64,000 nucleotides of DNA from Bryobacterales bacterium (GTDB taxonomy: Bacteria; Acidobacteriota; Terriglobia; Bryobacterales; Bryobacteraceae), in the NCBI GenBank assembly GCA_003167495.1, contig PMSX01000096.1:1-64000 (forward strand), written 5' to 3'. Below are positions 5,905 to 11,953 of this stretch, piece after piece; position 1 is the stretch's first letter, and each line of letters begins with the position of its first letter. The notes below the pieces were generated by a model. The model did not search any database and was not told where the DNA came from. It saw nothing but the letters and a program-made list of their open reading frames with translations. A program made the translations under genes and the position numbers.

Positions 5905-7083
5905 CTAAGCATGCACGTATTTCTGAAAAGCTTGCTTACGCGCGCGGCTCGGAACGGAGATGCTGTCACAGGGTACTACCCCGATGGTTGATGCGCTGAG
6001 CCCAGCTGGTAATTCCAAGGGACCTTTGTTGTTGAACAGCGGAGCGAGAAAGATCCCATGCCTGTCGGCAATCCTGCCAATTTCTGCCACTCTCTCGCTG
6101 GTTATAAAGCCTCGTCCTTGGGAGAAAGGCTCAAACCTCTTGTCGAGTGCGAGAGCGATTCCTTCGAGAAGACAACCATGGACTACATTGGGAAAGGGGT
6201 GACGGTTGAGTATCCCATTCAAATCCGGCGAGAGTCTAAGATTGCCAGTGACTTGACCCAGGCCTCCATGAAACACCTTTGCACCCTGAGATCGAAGGGG
6301 CGCGAGGTTCTTGGGATAGCCCGCGTCACAGACTATCGCGTCCGGGCAAATGCCATTCAAAACGAAAGATGGCGACGGGAGGCTTGCGGCACAGATCGCT
6401 ATGTCGGCCTCACAGTCGAACTGTTGCGAGCCAGACGCAATTTCGACCTGGCATCCGCCGGCTCGTAACTGAACTGCCAGCGTGTTCAGTCTGTCCTGAT
6501 TGCGAGCCCGTAACAGCAGCCTGTTCACGAAGGGAGCGAGACAGCGCGCACATCCGGAGCCCACGTCACCGGTAGCTCCCACGATCAGTAGCGTGGACTC
6601 GGCCAGGTTACGCTGCGCAAGCGCACACATTCGTTTGATTCCCTGCACGATAAAACAAACGGTCAGAGTGTTCCCTGTAGTAAAGACGGTTTCACCTCCG
6701 CTCGGGAGGTTAGCGACGTTCCCCTCTATAAGAATTGAGCTAAAACCTCCCAAGCTTACGATCTTTGCATTTGATTTAACGGCGCAAGCCGCAGCCTGTT
6801 TCACGCGTGCAAGATTCGCCCGCAAATTCTCTGGCCCCAATTCATCGGGTGGGATAAAGCAGTCGATGTAAAGACCGTGCGCACGTGATCCGGTAACAGA
6901 ATCCACGTCGACACTGCAGATCGGTCGTGGAGGGATCCAAGGGAGGATCTCTTTGACGTCTTGATCGCCTAAAGGAGATCGATCTGCCCCGCGCAGTACC
7001 CGCAGCACACCCTTAGCGGCTGACCAACAATCCTGGTGGCCAATCAAAGCAAAGTCCAAAGCGAAGTCAGTCACAAGAGTCAC
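5905..7083 (-). CDS. Long-chain acyl-ACP reductase (aldehyde-forming, AAR family)
   Basis: The 392-residue protein matches cyanobacterial acyl-ACP reductase over its length (these are about 340 residues). Landmarks seen are FALIGHQ near residue 11, SLGGFSSIL at 110-118, FTTGNTLT at 134-141, the Rossmann motif GATGDVGSG at 169-177, RARNQDRL at 192-199, DAGYPKNL at 253-260 and HGCLLEG with Cys304 aligned to the catalytic Cys of the family. AAR reduces acyl-ACP to a fatty aldehyde with NADPH through an acyl-Cys intermediate. The start is GTG at 7081-7083, directly abutting the TAG of the ADO homologue, so the two are almost surely co-translated; another GTG three codons in is possible. A C-terminal tail of about 45 residues is extra. 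The family call is strong; the true substrate is inferred. Confidence 0.88.
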   Translation of the reverse strand: MTLVTDFALDFALIGHQDCWSAAKGVLRVLRGADRSPLGDQDVKEILPWIPPRPICSVDVDSVTGSRAHGLYIDCFIPPDELGPENLRANLARVKQAAACAVKSNAKIVSLGGFSSILIEGNVANLPSGGETVFTTGNTLTVCFIVQGIKRMCALAQRNLAESTLLIVGATGDVGSGCARCLAPFVNRLLLRARNQDRLNTLAVQLRAGGCQVEIASGSQQFDCEADIAICAASLPSPSFVLNGICPDAIVCDAGYPKNLAPLRSQGAKVFHGGLGQVTGNLRLSPDLNGILNRHPFPNVVHGCLLEGIALALDKRFEPFSQGRGFITSERVAEIGRIADRHGIFLAPLFNNKGPLELPAGLSASTIGVVPCDSISVPSRARKQAFQKYVHA

Positions 7084-7848
7084 CTATACCGGCAACTGCG
7101 AAACCCATTGGAGAGTCATGTCACCGGGAAGACCTAGCAGATCCAGCGTTCTCAGATATCGGTTAAGGGATGCGCCGCGGAGCTCGGCGGTACTCAGAGA
7201 CACTTGCGACAATACGGTCTTCACGCACACACCGCCATGGCAAACCTGACACTGGCAGTTTTTATCCTGACTGACCAGCATTTCAGCCAAGGTAGTCATG
7301 ACTTGATTGTGCAATTCATATACCTTTGCATCAAATGCCGGCGTGTCGATCAGCCGTTCTTTTTCAAGAATCGAGAGTGCATGACCTATATGCTCTTCTT
7401 CCTCTTTGGCAATGGCGGTAAATGTCTTGCCGAGAGTTCCCGGCCCAACTCTGCCTACCCGCTCGTAGCTGGCTACAGCGAAGGATTCTAGCATCAACTC
7501 CTGAATGATCAGACATCCGATGATATCGCGACGAGCCGCACAGATCATATACGCGTTGCGGATGCGTTTCCAGTATTTTGCCTCCACGTTGCTTTGCACG
7601 TCTATCCCAAGCTTGCGGCCCTCGGCGGCAAACGCAGCCGCGTGGCCCTCTTCTCCCGAGGCATGCTCCAGTGCTTCTTTAACCTCCTCGGGATCGTCAC
7701 AAATGGCGGCAAGTGCAGTGTAGTTGAGAGCAGCCATCAGTTCGCCGGTGACGGCCTGCGCCAGGATGTCCTGCCATATCGAATTGAGAGACGCCGAAGG
7801 AATCTCAGTAGAATCGCAAGGTTTGTTCACGATCTCAGTCAAGTACAT
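7084..7848 (-). CDS. Ferritin-like aldehyde-deformylating oxygenase homologue (ADO family)
   Basis: A 254-residue helical protein with all six expected di-iron ligands in ADO order and spacing: Glu36, Glu66-x-x-His69, Glu121 (in LMLESFAVASY) and Glu150-x-x-His153. The flanking segments match cyanobacterial ADO (LNYTALAAI, EGRKLGIDV, CLIIQELMLESFAV). ADO converts Cn fatty aldehydes to Cn-1 alkanes plus formate using O2 and reduced ferredoxin. The gene lies immediately upstream of the acyl-ACP reductase homologue, the same order as in cyanobacteria. One oddity is a Cys cluster, CQCQVCHGGVC (Cys198, 200, 203, 208), inserted before the last helix, which I do not know from cyanobacterial ADO. GAGG lies just before the ATG. 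It could instead act on another aldehyde. Confidence 0.85.
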   Translation of the reverse strand: MYLTEIVNKPCDSTEIPSASLNSIWQDILAQAVTGELMAALNYTALAAICDDPEEVKEALEHASGEEGHAAAFAAEGRKLGIDVQSNVEAKYWKRIRNAYMICAARRDIIGCLIIQELMLESFAVASYERVGRVGPGTLGKTFTAIAKEEEEHIGHALSILEKERLIDTPAFDAKVYELHNQVMTTLAEMLVSQDKNCQCQVCHGGVCVKTVLSQVSLSTAELRGASLNRYLRTLDLLGLPGDMTLQWVSQLPV

Positions 7849-7887: not shown

Positions 7888-8826
7888 TCAGATAGGTGCG
7901 CGATAGCGACGCAGCCGGACCGCAGCGGCGAGTAAGAGTGCGGCGATGGCCAGGCCAATCCAGAGACCTGTCGTGGTCAGGAACTTGCCGGGAGTGAGTT
8001 GTGACAGCGGAATAAAATGCGGATCGGCCGGGGAGCGAATCGCTTCGGTAAACATTCCAATCAAGCGATATCCCAGCAGGGCGGCGAAATGCGTGGTGTT
8101 GAAAGCAATTTTCTCGAAGGCGCAGATGGCGAGCGGAGGAAACACCGCCCAGAGAAATGGGGCGCGCCGGGCCCAGCCGGAAACCAGCAGCAGCCAGCCA
8201 TAGATGGGCGCATGCCAGAGGGCCATCGCAGCAAGACAATAGAGCAGCACCAATTCGATCTCAAAGAACGGAACCTGTGCCCACAACATCGCGGTACCCA
8301 CGCCGCTGAGCAGCAGGACTGCGGCGCTCAGCAGCAGCATAGTCAGTTGCACGGCAAAGACGATGGCAAAGACGAACAAAGGCAGAACCACGAGCGGAAT
8401 GCTTGCCTTGGCGAGCACGGTGGCGAGATCGGAAACCGGCAACGACTTCCAGAACAAGATGCTGCGATCGCGCCGTTCGCCGTGCAACGCGTCGAGACAA
8501 TAGAACACCCCAATGATAAACGCGGTCAAGGCGAGGAGCATTCCTACGTGGCCGTACGGCATAACGAGCGCGGCGCGCTGCTGCGCCGGCTGCAGTGCTG
8601 CCAGTGCGCGCACGCTGCGCGGCAGACCAATCAGTGTGATCAAAAAGCCGAGCAACATGACGGCGCCGGCGCCGAGAGGCGCGATATAAGTGGAACGGTT
8701 CTCCCACAATTCGCGCCGCACCGACCAATACATGGGCCGAGTCGACATAGCCGGGGGTGCGTTTCTCGGTGGGTCGAAGCGAGACTCGGGGCCGAGCTCC
8801 GGCGCGGCATTCGATTGAGTGCTCAT
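7888..8826 (-). CDS. ABC-2 type transporter permease
   Basis: A 312-residue protein with a polar N-terminus of about 45 residues and roughly six hydrophobic membrane segments, for example LGAGAVMLLGFLITLIGL, MLLALTAFIIGVFYCLDAL and LWIGLAIAALLLAAAV. The sequence ERRDRSILFWKSLPVSD is typical of ABC-2 permeases of the YtrC/NatB type. Its start overlaps the ATPase stop by ATGA (8823-8826), so it is the membrane half of the same exporter. The ADO homologue starts 39 bases after its stop, so read-through into ADO-AAR is plausible. The substrate is unknown. Confidence 0.85.
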   Translation of the reverse strand: MSTQSNAAPELGPESRFDPPRNAPPAMSTRPMYWSVRRELWENRSTYIAPLGAGAVMLLGFLITLIGLPRSVRALAALQPAQQRAALVMPYGHVGMLLALTAFIIGVFYCLDALHGERRDRSILFWKSLPVSDLATVLAKASIPLVVLPLFVFAIVFAVQLTMLLLSAAVLLLSGVGTAMLWAQVPFFEIELVLLYCLAAMALWHAPIYGWLLLVSGWARRAPFLWAVFPPLAICAFEKIAFNTTHFAALLGYRLIGMFTEAIRSPADPHFIPLSQLTPGKFLTTTGLWIGLAIAALLLAAAVRLRRYRAPI

Positions 8827-9698
8827 GTTGCCGCTTCCTGGGTTGCGCCCGGCTGATTGCCGATGACGGCAACGAACACGTCGGCGATGTTGGCGGTGCG
8901 CACGTCGCCAAGCTCCGCGAGTTGCTGACGATCGACTTGATCGAACAGCAGGATGCTGCGACCGAACAGCTGGCGCTCGTGTATTGGCCTAAGCGCCCTG
9001 GCCGAGGCGAGCTGCTCGGGATGCACCGTCATTTCGAGATATCGCGACTCGAATTCCTCCATGCTGCAAGTAAGTACGATGCGGCCACGATTGATGAACA
9101 TCAGGTCTGTGAGGACGTGCTGAATCTCTTCCACCTGATGTGTCGTTACGAGGATGGTGCGGCTGCGATCAAAGTAGTCGTTCAGCAGTGAGTCGTAAAA
9201 CTGCTTGCGATAGAGGATGTCGAGGCCGAGTGTTGGCTCATCCAGCACGAGCAATTTCGCGTCAATGGCCATTACCAGCGCGAGATGCAGTTGGGCCACC
9301 ATGCCCTTCGACAATTCCCTAACCTTGCTGGCGCGCCCGATGGTGGTTTTTGCAAGAAAACGTTCCGCCTTCGTGCGATCGAATCGCGGATGCACGCCGG
9401 CAAAGTAGTCAAGCGTTTGCGAAACCCTGATCCAGCGGGGGAGCACGGCAACATCGGCAATGAAGCAGACGTCGCGCATGAGCTGATCGCGCTGGTTCCA
9501 GGGGTCGCGTCCGAGCACGTTCAGTTCTCCCTGATAGGGAGTAAGGCCGAGAATTGCGTTCAGCGCAGTGGTCTTGCCCGCGCCGTTAGGGCCAATGAGC
9601 CCGAGGATGCGGCCCTCTTCGACACGCAAATTGACGTTATCCAGCGCGATGGTTGTGCCAAAGGCTTTGCGGAGGCCTCGTGCTTCTATGCATGCCAT
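8823..9698 (-). CDS. ABC transporter ATP-binding protein
   Basis: The start at 9698 (MACIEARGLRKAFG) is preferred: it falls 4 bases after the GntR stop with AAGGAGG upstream; the longer frame to 9749 lies inside the GntR gene. The protein of about 291 residues has Walker A GPNGAGKTT, a slightly divergent signature ELSKGM in place of LSGGQ, Walker B KLLVLDEPTLGLD and the switch His in VTTHQVEE. A C-terminal extension of about 80 residues is typical of the YtrB/CcmA-like ATPases paired with a GntR regulator. It powers the ABC-2 permease encoded next. Confidence 0.92.
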   Translation of the reverse strand: MACIEARGLRKAFGTTIALDNVNLRVEEGRILGLIGPNGAGKTTALNAILGLTPYQGELNVLGRDPWNQRDQLMRDVCFIADVAVLPRWIRVSQTLDYFAGVHPRFDRTKAERFLAKTTIGRASKVRELSKGMVAQLHLALVMAIDAKLLVLDEPTLGLDILYRKQFYDSLLNDYFDRSRTILVTTHQVEEIQHVLTDLMFINRGRIVLTCSMEEFESRYLEMTVHPEQLASARALRPIHERQLFGRSILLFDQVDRQQLAELGDVRTANIADVFVAVIGNQPGATQEAAT

Positions 9699-9702
9699 GG
9701 CT

Positions 9703-10089
9703 TCAGCGCTCCTCCTTGGCATCCGATGGGGATCGGTTTGCGCCAGCATCCAGCAGTTCTTGCGGTTTCAGACCGAGCCGATGAATGGTTGCGTAAACTC
9801 TGGGCCATTCTTCCGCCAGAAACTTCTGGCGTTCGCCCTCAAGTAGCAGGTTGTGCGCGCCGGGTTTAACGAACATGCCCATACCTCGCTTTTTTTCGAC
9901 AAGCTGCTCGTCGACCAGTTGCTGATAGCTTTTCAGGACCGTGAGCGGATTGACGCGGGATTCGGCCGCGACATTGCGTACGGAGGGCAGGGAATCGCCT
10001 TCTTTGAGCACGCCATCGAGTATCATGGCGACGACACGGTCGCGAAGCTGGCGATAAATCGGCTGACTGTCGTTCCATTCCCCGCTCAT
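9703..10089 (-). CDS. GntR-family transcriptional regulator, YtrA type
   Basis: A 128-residue protein: N-terminal winged helix-turn-helix (PIYRQLRDRVVAMILDGVLKEGDSLPSVR, then a recognition-helix region around VNPLTVLKSYQQLVDE) and only a short C-terminal tail, the layout of the YtrA subfamily. YtrA proteins repress the ABC transporter operon they head. The gene is first in the GntR-ATPase-permease-ADO-AAR block, and an 18-bp palindrome lies about 45 bases upstream of its start, consistent with autorepression. The effector is not predictable. Confidence 0.9.
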   Translation of the reverse strand: MSGEWNDSQPIYRQLRDRVVAMILDGVLKEGDSLPSVRNVAAESRVNPLTVLKSYQQLVDEQLVEKKRGMGMFVKPGAHNLLLEGERQKFLAEEWPRVYATIHRLGLKPQELLDAGANRSPSDAKEER

Positions 10090-11320: not shown

Positions 11321-11953
11321 CTATTTTCGAACTCGCAACACCTTCCGGTGAGACGTTTCCCCGTGCAGTAATTCCACATTACTCTTCGGCACCTTGAACC
11401 ATCTCGCCAACACGTCGCGCAATTCTTCGTTCGCTTTGCCTTTATCCGGCACAGCGGCAACCCTGACCTTCATAGCGCCGTCAGTGGTTACCCCAACCAC
11501 CTCACTGCGCGCAGCTCGTGGCACGGCTTTTACGTCAAAGGTCGCGACTCCATCGCGCGCCAGCAATTCACGCAAACGCGCCAGCTTGGGCTCTGCGTTG
11601 CCCGCAAGCTCACCAAGTTTCTTCATGAGATAGGCGGTGGACGATCCCTTCGCAATCACCTCTTCCACCAGACTCTTTTCCGGCAAACCATTGATGCGTT
11701 TTAGATCGGCGCCGGTAAGCACAAAAACCCGAATCGCCGCGTCGAAGGCCTTCAACGCACGAATGAGAGCCAACCCGATGGCTTCGGTAGGAATTCTCAA
11801 ATCGATCACGGCACACTGCGGGCGTTGTGTCTTCGCTTCTTCCAGGGCCGCCGCCGCTGTCGTCACCGCGATCGTTTCGTGGCCGCTTTCAGCAAGCAAC
11901 AGGCATCGTAGATCGAGTTGGTCTTTGTCGTCGTCCGCCAGCAGAATTTTCAT
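11321..11953 (-). CDS. Response-regulator receiver domain fused to DUF167 (YggU-like)
   Basis: A 210-residue protein in two parts. Residues 1-120 are a CheY-like receiver with acidic pocket Asp7-Asp9, phospho-acceptor Asp51 (CAVIDLRIP), Thr79 (VLTGA) and Lys101 (IAKGSS). Residues 135-210 are a complete DUF167/YggU domain (VKAVPRAARSEVVGV, DKGKANEELRDVLARWF, VELLHGETSHRKVLRV). DUF167 proteins are normally stand-alone, about 100 residues, and of unknown function. The gene follows the membrane protein at 11958-12440 by 4 bases. No histidine kinase is near. The fusion looks real because one uninterrupted frame joins both domains with a normal linker. Confidence 0.85.
   Translation of the reverse strand: MKILLADDDKDQLDLRCLLLAESGHETIAVTTAAAALEEAKTQRPQCAVIDLRIPTEAIGLALIRALKAFDAAIRVFVLTGADLKRINGLPEKSLVEEVIAKGSSTAYLMKKLGELAGNAEPKLARLRELLARDGVATFDVKAVPRAARSEVVGVTTDGAMKVRVAAVPDKGKANEELRDVLARWFKVPKSNVELLHGETSHRKVLRVRK

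Follow-up and report, generated by a model that had tools for sequence, protein, structure and literature searches.

An AAR-like reductase and an ADO-like di-iron protein encoded side by side in Acidobacteriota and Bacteroidota: a possible sister branch of the cyanobacterial alkane pathway

The reductase AAR and the di-iron enzyme ADO are described as the cyanobacterial route to alkanes; both are slow enzymes and serve as targets of biofuel engineering. We studied a stretch of 64,000 nucleotides from an acidobacterium (Bryobacterales bacterium, assembly GCA_003167495.1, contig PMSX01000096.1; referred to in the following as the window), in which a gene for an ADO-like protein is followed by one for an AAR-like protein. 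In cyanobacteria, ado and aar lie side by side in 138 of 181 genomes, and in Synechocystis the two genes possess separate promoters, ado has a terminator and the mRNAs are monocistronic (accessible part of PMC4094844). The accessible parts of further papers give the di-iron ligands and the EX28-29EX2H motif of cyanobacterial ADO (PMC4286721), its near-metal residues (PMC5356278), and both the acyl-chain- and NADPH-binding residues of Synechococcus elongatus AAR and the acidic patch on helix 7 of ADO (E196, E200, D201 and E208) that docks AAR (PMC7089970); loss of Cys71 from Nostoc ADO lowers its activity to about 0.1 (PMC4383598). Our literature search on ADO outside cyanobacteria found no description of the group to which the window pair belongs, although subscription papers lay mostly outside this search, so that it is not proof. 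Non-cyanobacterial candidates are not wholly without precedent, since one Flavobacteriaceae contig carries a gene for a "fatty aldehyde decarbonylase" (accessible part of PMC10176705; perhaps of the same family), and since the title of the PDB entry 6D9F claims such an activity for a Kitasatospora setae protein. In the accessible part of PMC13170169, ADO appears solely as an annotation term. As detailed below, the acidobacterial pair seems to represent a branch of its own rather than a recent cyanobacterial gift.

In the libraries searched, cyanobacterial ADO and AAR are the closest relatives of the two proteins. A PDB search with the ADO-like protein returned 20 distinct sequences at E <= 0.001 (best E 6.6e-11), all of which bear the name aldehyde decarbonylase or ADO, and a profile of 18 ADO-like relatives added two ferritin-like proteins that scored far lower. 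The protein also passes the gathering cut-off of PF11266 (52.4 bits; cut-off 28), a family matched at E <= 0.01 by all 18 members of the ADO-like alignment. The AAR-like protein matched the PDB entry 6jzq across residues 11-344 (E 1.9e-31); no Pfam match and no fused class III aminotransferase were found in this protein of 392 residues. When S. elongatus AAR was compared with the 17 AAR-like proteins, scores of 94-146 bits were obtained, versus 25-73 bits with six reductase domains of the fusion type, in which an AAR-like domain is joined to such an aminotransferase; a profile of the AAR-like group likewise scored S. elongatus AAR at 199 bits versus 71-125 bits for the fusion-type domains. Membership of the window protein in the PigE/TamH-type fusions was ruled out by these comparisons, by its free-standing form and by the missing aminotransferase. 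Two acidobacterial open reading frames of 1006 and 915 residues (L037:7640-10660 and L038:2032-4779, both on the minus strand) carry an AAR-like domain near their C-terminal end, as does TamH.

The homology to ADO and AAR that the initial annotation had proposed is thus supported by the PDB and PF11266 matches, and for the ADO-like protein by its predicted fold as well. An AlphaFold model computed from a two-sequence alignment (mean predicted local distance difference test score, pLDDT, 79.1) matched 21 cyanobacterial ADO entries with Z 23.8-27.2 and root-mean-square deviations of 2.2-2.5 over 214-217 residues, while the best non-cyanobacterial match, an Arthrobacter protein, reached Z 19.8. 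The structure-based identity to these 21 entries is flat at 19-23%; it is similarly low to ADO from Gloeobacter, Nostoc, Synechococcus and Prochlorococcus, which argues against an origin from any of these four lineages. The model is unreliable at residues 192-216 (pLDDT < 50), and that of the AAR-like protein, also from a two-sequence alignment, had a mean pLDDT of 43 and was not used.

We assessed conservation of the active sites in an ADO-like alignment of 18 rows (A1, window included; the ADO of locus L074 left out) and in an AAR-like alignment of 17 rows (A4, without the truncated AAR of L062 and the AAR of L074); equivalences to S. elongatus ADO come from MAFFT alignments at about 20% identity, in which helix 7 may be shifted by one or two residues. 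All six di-iron ligands named in the initial annotation (Glu36, Glu66, His69, Glu121, Glu150 and His153) are invariant in 18 of 18 rows and align to Glu32, Glu60, His63, Glu115, Glu144 and His147 of S. elongatus ADO; they form two EX28-29EX2H motifs (E36-X29-E66-X2-H69 and E121-X28-E150-X2-H153). Around this centre, the equivalents of the cyanobacterial residues Gln110 (Gln116), Tyr122 (Tyr128) and Phe117 (Phe123) are likewise found in every row, as is that of Phe67 (Phe73), which is a Tyr in the unaligned L074 protein. Other positions vary: that of Tyr39 holds Tyr in 14 and Phe in four rows, that of Asp143 Glu in 16 and Asp in two, and that of Arg62 Gly in 14 of the 18. The AAR-like protein possesses the motifs GATGDVGSG, SLGGFSSIL and GYPKNL, and its Cys304, as had been predicted, corresponds to the catalytic C294 of S. 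elongatus AAR; it is invariant in 17/17 rows together with His16, Tyr256 and Arg194. Besides these four residues, the window protein retains R198, R324 and the nucleotide-loop glycines G169, G172 and G175. In the AAR-like protein of L061 an insertion of about 28 residues rich in Leu, Lys and Pro follows SILIEG (A4 columns 131-158), and a shorter insertion occupies this site in the L036 protein.

The ADO-like proteins share an insertion between helices 6 and 7 (Table 1), whose three cysteines (C200, C203 and C208) are invariant in all 18 rows; the same CxxC-x3-C pattern is present in the L074 protein, which stands outside the alignment.

Genomes were called acidobacterial by kinship with the window genome, and Bacteroidota carriers were assigned via the locus L003 from a member of the Chitinophagaceae (own genome and family: G593, G765, G785 and G835; phylum: G1297). 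The pair is rare: true relatives were recovered from three of 200 genomes of the window family (AAR query), 11 of 349 genomes of the class (PF11266 search), three of 396 genomes across the phylum (ADO query), four of 294 genomes of the L003 family and two of 345 of its phylum, all in samples that overlap. In the family search with the AAR-like protein, 61 of 200 genomes gave matches at E <= 0.001: three were kept as true orthologues, two long matches (G164, 29% identity; G096, 24%) were set apart, and the other 56 were dropped, being short Rossmann-region stretches among the matches listed. The pair is therefore known from 19 distinct loci, 14 of them acidobacterial (the window and 13 others) and five from Bacteroidota. 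The acidobacterial loci fall into five families (f91 eight, f1 three, and f26, f40 and f94 one each). In 19/19 loci the AAR-like gene follows the ADO-like gene, that of L062 being cut by the contig end. Phyla beyond these two were covered by a single-protein scan of genome contigs that detects close relatives only. The ADO-like protein had no match in plasmid or phage collections at E <= 0.01, and no confirmed relative of either protein was found on viral contigs; the AAR-like protein matched ten plasmid records at 24-28% identity, eight annotated as class III aminotransferases and two without annotation.

The initial annotation had placed the pair in an acidobacterial host, and this is borne out by its occurrence across the family, class and phylum and by 67 permeases of the ADOP type (which we take to mean "Acidobacterial duplicated orphan permease") that score over the cut-off in the window genome; none of 14 control genomes has such a match, though 13 of them match more weakly. 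A 16S rRNA gene was not found in the window genome. Both open reading frames exist as first annotated (Table 1), and the GTG start codon of the AAR-like gene begins directly after the TAG stop codon of the ADO-like gene. While the gene order does correspond to that of cyanobacteria, the claim that the overlap copies a cyanobacterial operon did not hold, since the separate mRNAs of Synechocystis (accessible part of PMC4094844) set this tight coupling apart from the cyanobacterial arrangement described.

Table 1. Position of the gene pair, of selected features within it and of the adjoining genes in the window
Feature	Position	Strand	Remarks
ADO-like ferritin-fold di-iron protein	7084..7848	(-)	254 aa, ATG start; PF11266, TIGR04059, fold, ligands
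18-residue insertion N197-S214 of ADO-like protein	7207..7260	(-)	between helices 6 and 7; C200, C203, C208
AAR-like acyl-thioester reductase	5905..7083	(-)	392 aa, GTG start; TIGR04058, 6jzq, Cys304
Catalytic Cys304 codon of AAR-like gene	6172..6174	(-)	aligned to C294 of S. elongatus AAR
Membrane protein read as ABC permease	7888..8826	(-)	312 aa; 39 bp upstream of ADO-like gene
ABC transporter ATPase	8823..9749	(-)	308 aa; PF00005, 77.8 bits
GntR-family regulator	9703..10089	(-)	128 aa; PF00392, 49.8 bits

Upstream of the pair, and on its strand, the window carries genes for a regulator of the GntR family, the ATPase of an ABC transporter and a membrane protein; the last of these has no Pfam match, and its reading as a permease rests on its position. 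Counting the window, 11 of the 14 acidobacterial loci have relatives of this whole GntR-ATPase-permease set near the pair: they lie upstream in ten, sometimes with intervening genes, and downstream in L040. Among the 13 other acidobacterial loci, 11 have relatives of the permease, ten of the ATPase (76-89% identical) and ten of the regulator. In L064 the permease is seen up to the contig end; in L035 the contig reaches no further than 236 bases upstream of the ADO gene, with no module downstream in the stretch covered, and in L036 none was found within 20 kb. Of 200 genomes of the class, 25 have a relative of the permease, and eight of these are known ADO carriers. A Fisher test of permease against ADO carriage gave p 2e-8, or 2.5e-6 if the sample included three further ADO carriers that lack the permease; this test is crude, as the genomes are related, and the carriers G073, G1059 and G1082 may or may not belong to the sample. 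Four of the five Bacteroidota loci (L056, L057, L058 and L074) possess the order GNAT - ADO-like - AAR-like - DUF3419, the last being presumably the BtaA betaine-lipid family; neither a GNAT nor a DUF3419 gene was found flanking the pair in L003. L056 continues with genes for a P450, an HpnA-like SDR and a glyoxalase-domain protein, and L057 with a desaturase-like gene. Further along the window, a 210-residue open reading frame (11321-11953, minus strand) combines a response-regulator receiver domain (PF00072) with a DUF167/YggU domain (PF02594).

The ADO-like proteins in 13 acidobacterial rows are 58-98% identical to each other, and 35-43% identical to those of Bacteroidota. Pairwise ADO and AAR distances are correlated, with a Pearson coefficient of 0.97 over 136 pairs from 17 loci and of 0.91 over 78 acidobacterial pairs; this supports, but does not prove, that the two genes travelled together, since shared ancestry alone raises such a correlation. 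The initial annotation had left a choice between horizontal transfer and an old, overlooked branch. The evidence favours an old branch outside the cyanobacteria over acquisition from a known cyanobacterium, because identity to cyanobacterial ADO stays flat at the low level of the structure comparisons while the group itself spans two phyla; we infer the age of this branch from divergence. Transfer inside the Acidobacteriota, on the other hand, is likely. The window ADO-like protein is 60 and 62% identical to two copies from its own family and 58-63% identical to other acidobacterial copies, and the window genome is the sole member of its family among the 25 genomes of the class with a permease relative. 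Taken together, these two findings indicate that the block was probably acquired from another acidobacterial lineage.

With a little more confidence than doubt, we consider the pair to be an ancient sister branch of cyanobacterial AAR/ADO, which would make an aldehyde, remove its C1 and leave a Cn-1 hydrocarbon. Judged from the conserved residues, the reductase would load an acyl chain from acyl carrier protein (or CoA) onto Cys304, where NADPH would reduce it to the fatty aldehyde; fold, ligands and pairing suggest that the di-iron enzyme, using O2 and external electrons, would then convert the aldehyde C1 to formate. Reduction of an acyl thioester to an aldehyde by the AAR-like protein is likely, oxidative removal of C1 by the ADO-like protein is on balance to be expected, and the final product would probably be an alkane, its nature remaining speculative. 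Speculatively, too, the two proteins probably meet via another surface than in cyanobacteria, and the Cys-rich insertion beside helix 7 might act as a new lid, docking face or point of electron entry. Judged by co-location, the GntR-ABC module may serve to regulate the product or to export it, or may respond to what the product does to the membrane.

Several observations weigh against this interpretation. Both proteins score below the curated equivalog cut-offs of the corresponding NCBIfam models (54.1 versus 222.65 bits for TIGR04059; 136.8 versus 449.7 bits for TIGR04058), and we therefore file the pair outside the cyanobacterial equivalog families. In two MAFFT modes, the acids by which S. 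elongatus ADO docks (E196, E200, D201 and E208) correspond to A221, G225, A226 and R233, and 17 of 18 rows have Lys or Arg at the last of these positions; the AAR-like proteins have lost R73 and R79 but keep K80 as R or K. Nostoc Cys71 aligns to Glu76, in a column without Cys in any of the 18 rows (the L074 protein has a Cys a single residue beyond it). Five further residues of the ADO-like protein are invariant (Q31, H62, E117, H156 and H180): at the positions of Q31, E117 and H156, S. elongatus ADO has Ile27, Ser111 and Phe150, while H62 sits within a two-residue insertion. A fusion-type reductase profile scores S. elongatus AAR (136 bits) about as high as the AAR-like group (109-159 bits), so that the comparisons establish nearness and not the branching order. 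The neighbours of the pair differ between the phyla, and the GntR-ABC module is not tied to it, since 17 genomes of the class have the permease but are not known carriers of the pair. The label "cyanobacterial-type alkane pathway" of the initial annotation is accordingly not retained, given the missed cut-offs, the lost docking patch and Cys71, and the new Cys-rich insertion; that the pair produces alkanes is what we infer.

It is quite possible, if short of probable, that the reductase makes an aldehyde while the di-iron enzyme, as part of lipid or specialised-metabolite formation, catalyses another oxidation and yields something other than an alkane; it might, for instance, release an n-1 alcohol or aldehyde, or act on a chain that is polar and modified. 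The Cys-rich insertion, the new invariant polar residues and the lost docking patch are in line with such a role, as are the GntR-ABC module in Acidobacteriota and, in Bacteroidota, the GNAT and DUF3419 flanks of four of the five loci with the additional P450, SDR and glyoxalase genes of L056 and the desaturase-like gene of L057; moreover, the related reductase domains of TamH and KecF serve amine and alkaloid pathways (accessible parts of PMC9594044 and PMC6498172). Against it speak the primary iron ligands and the several aligned second-sphere and pocket residues that are kept, a fold match to cyanobacterial ADO well above that to the next protein, and the acidobacterial loci, in which no tailoring gene was seen to recur except for a Zn-dehydrogenase (three loci) and DUF4386-like membrane proteins (some). 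In a related but rather unlikely version, the pair would be a sporadically spread module outside photosynthetic bacteria and a further type of di-iron pathway to hydrocarbons or lipids, in which an AAR-coupled oxygenase acts on a different aldehyde and the insertion binds a metal or Fe-S centre at the substrate entrance; in Bacteroidota it would perhaps feed a BtaA-like 3-amino-3-carboxypropyl transfer.

A cyanobacterial contamination, a chimeric contig or a recent transfer from a known cyanobacterium is highly improbable. The window genome (9.39 Mb in 396 contigs, 93.9% complete) is rated as 7.59% contaminated, and among 22 window genes measured the two of the pair have the lowest third-position G+C content (0.59 and 0.56; next-lowest 0.596). 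However, the closest relatives of the pair are acidobacterial and reside on contigs of up to 190 kb, eight of the 13 other carriers are at most 2% contaminated, intact copies more than 60% identical occur in many clean acidobacterial genomes, and identity to cyanobacterial ADO is about 20%. A recent cyanobacterial origin and contamination were rejected on these identity levels and on the relatives in other genomes. The adjoining permease and ATPase genes have third-position G+C contents of 0.72 and 0.70.

That a generic rubrerythrin- or ferritin-like protein lies by chance beside an unrelated SDR-type reductase has a practically negligible probability and was rejected on the adjacency in 19/19 loci, which in practice refutes it: PF02915 (Rubrerythrin) does match the window protein (30.9 bits; cut-off 22.8) and 18/18 relatives, and encapsulin ferritin models match weakly, but PF11266 scores higher (52.4 bits; best E among 18 members 6.4e-15 versus 3.9e-7 for Rubrerythrin), and the AAR match is nearly whole-length with the catalytic Cys included.

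If the preferred reading of the pair as an ancient sister branch of AAR/ADO is true, Acidobacteriota and Bacteroidota would house a branch of their own, which would alter where one looks for biological alkanes, and engineers would gain a natural variant whose lid and docking face are rebuilt. One could further ask which traits of the cyanobacterial enzyme the chemistry needs, and whether the pathway is older than Cyanobacteria or was passed from one phylum to another.

Among the known systems nearest to the pair is the K. setae protein 6D9F ("Protein 60 with aldehyde deformylating oxidase activity", known from its PDB title only), which shares the ferritin-like fold and whose title claims ADO-type activity outside cyanobacteria; with 321 residues and 14% identity, it reaches Z 19.4 against the ADO-like model, versus 23.8-27.2 for cyanobacterial ADO. 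PigE, TamH and KecF, in which an AAR-like domain is fused to a class III aminotransferase, possess a homologous reductase domain (4ppm, 67.6 bits), while the window reductase is free-standing, lacks the aminotransferase and is paired with a di-iron enzyme; direct comparison places S. elongatus AAR nearer to the window group than to the six fusion domains. Cyanobacterial AAR (TIGR04058; 6JZQ) aligns with the window protein over nearly its whole length and shares with it GxTGDxG, the catalytic Cys and the equivalents of Arg189, Arg193, Arg314, Tyr247 and His7; the AAR-like protein differs in its TIGR04058 score and in the loss of two of three ADO-binding basic residues, and the NADPH-phosphate Arg (position 198) is lost in three of four aligned Bacteroidota rows. 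Cyanobacterial ADO (TIGR04059, PF11266; 4RC5, 2OC5, 5UX2) and the ADO-like protein are alike in their ferritin-like fold, the six iron ligands with their motif spacing, the equivalents of Gln110, Tyr122, Phe67 and Phe117 and the position of the gene beside that of the reductase. With only about 20% identity, the ADO-like protein is set apart from it by the 18-residue insertion with three Cys, the lost AAR-docking acids, the Glu at the Cys71 position and the extra invariant residues Q31, H62, E117, H156 and H180.

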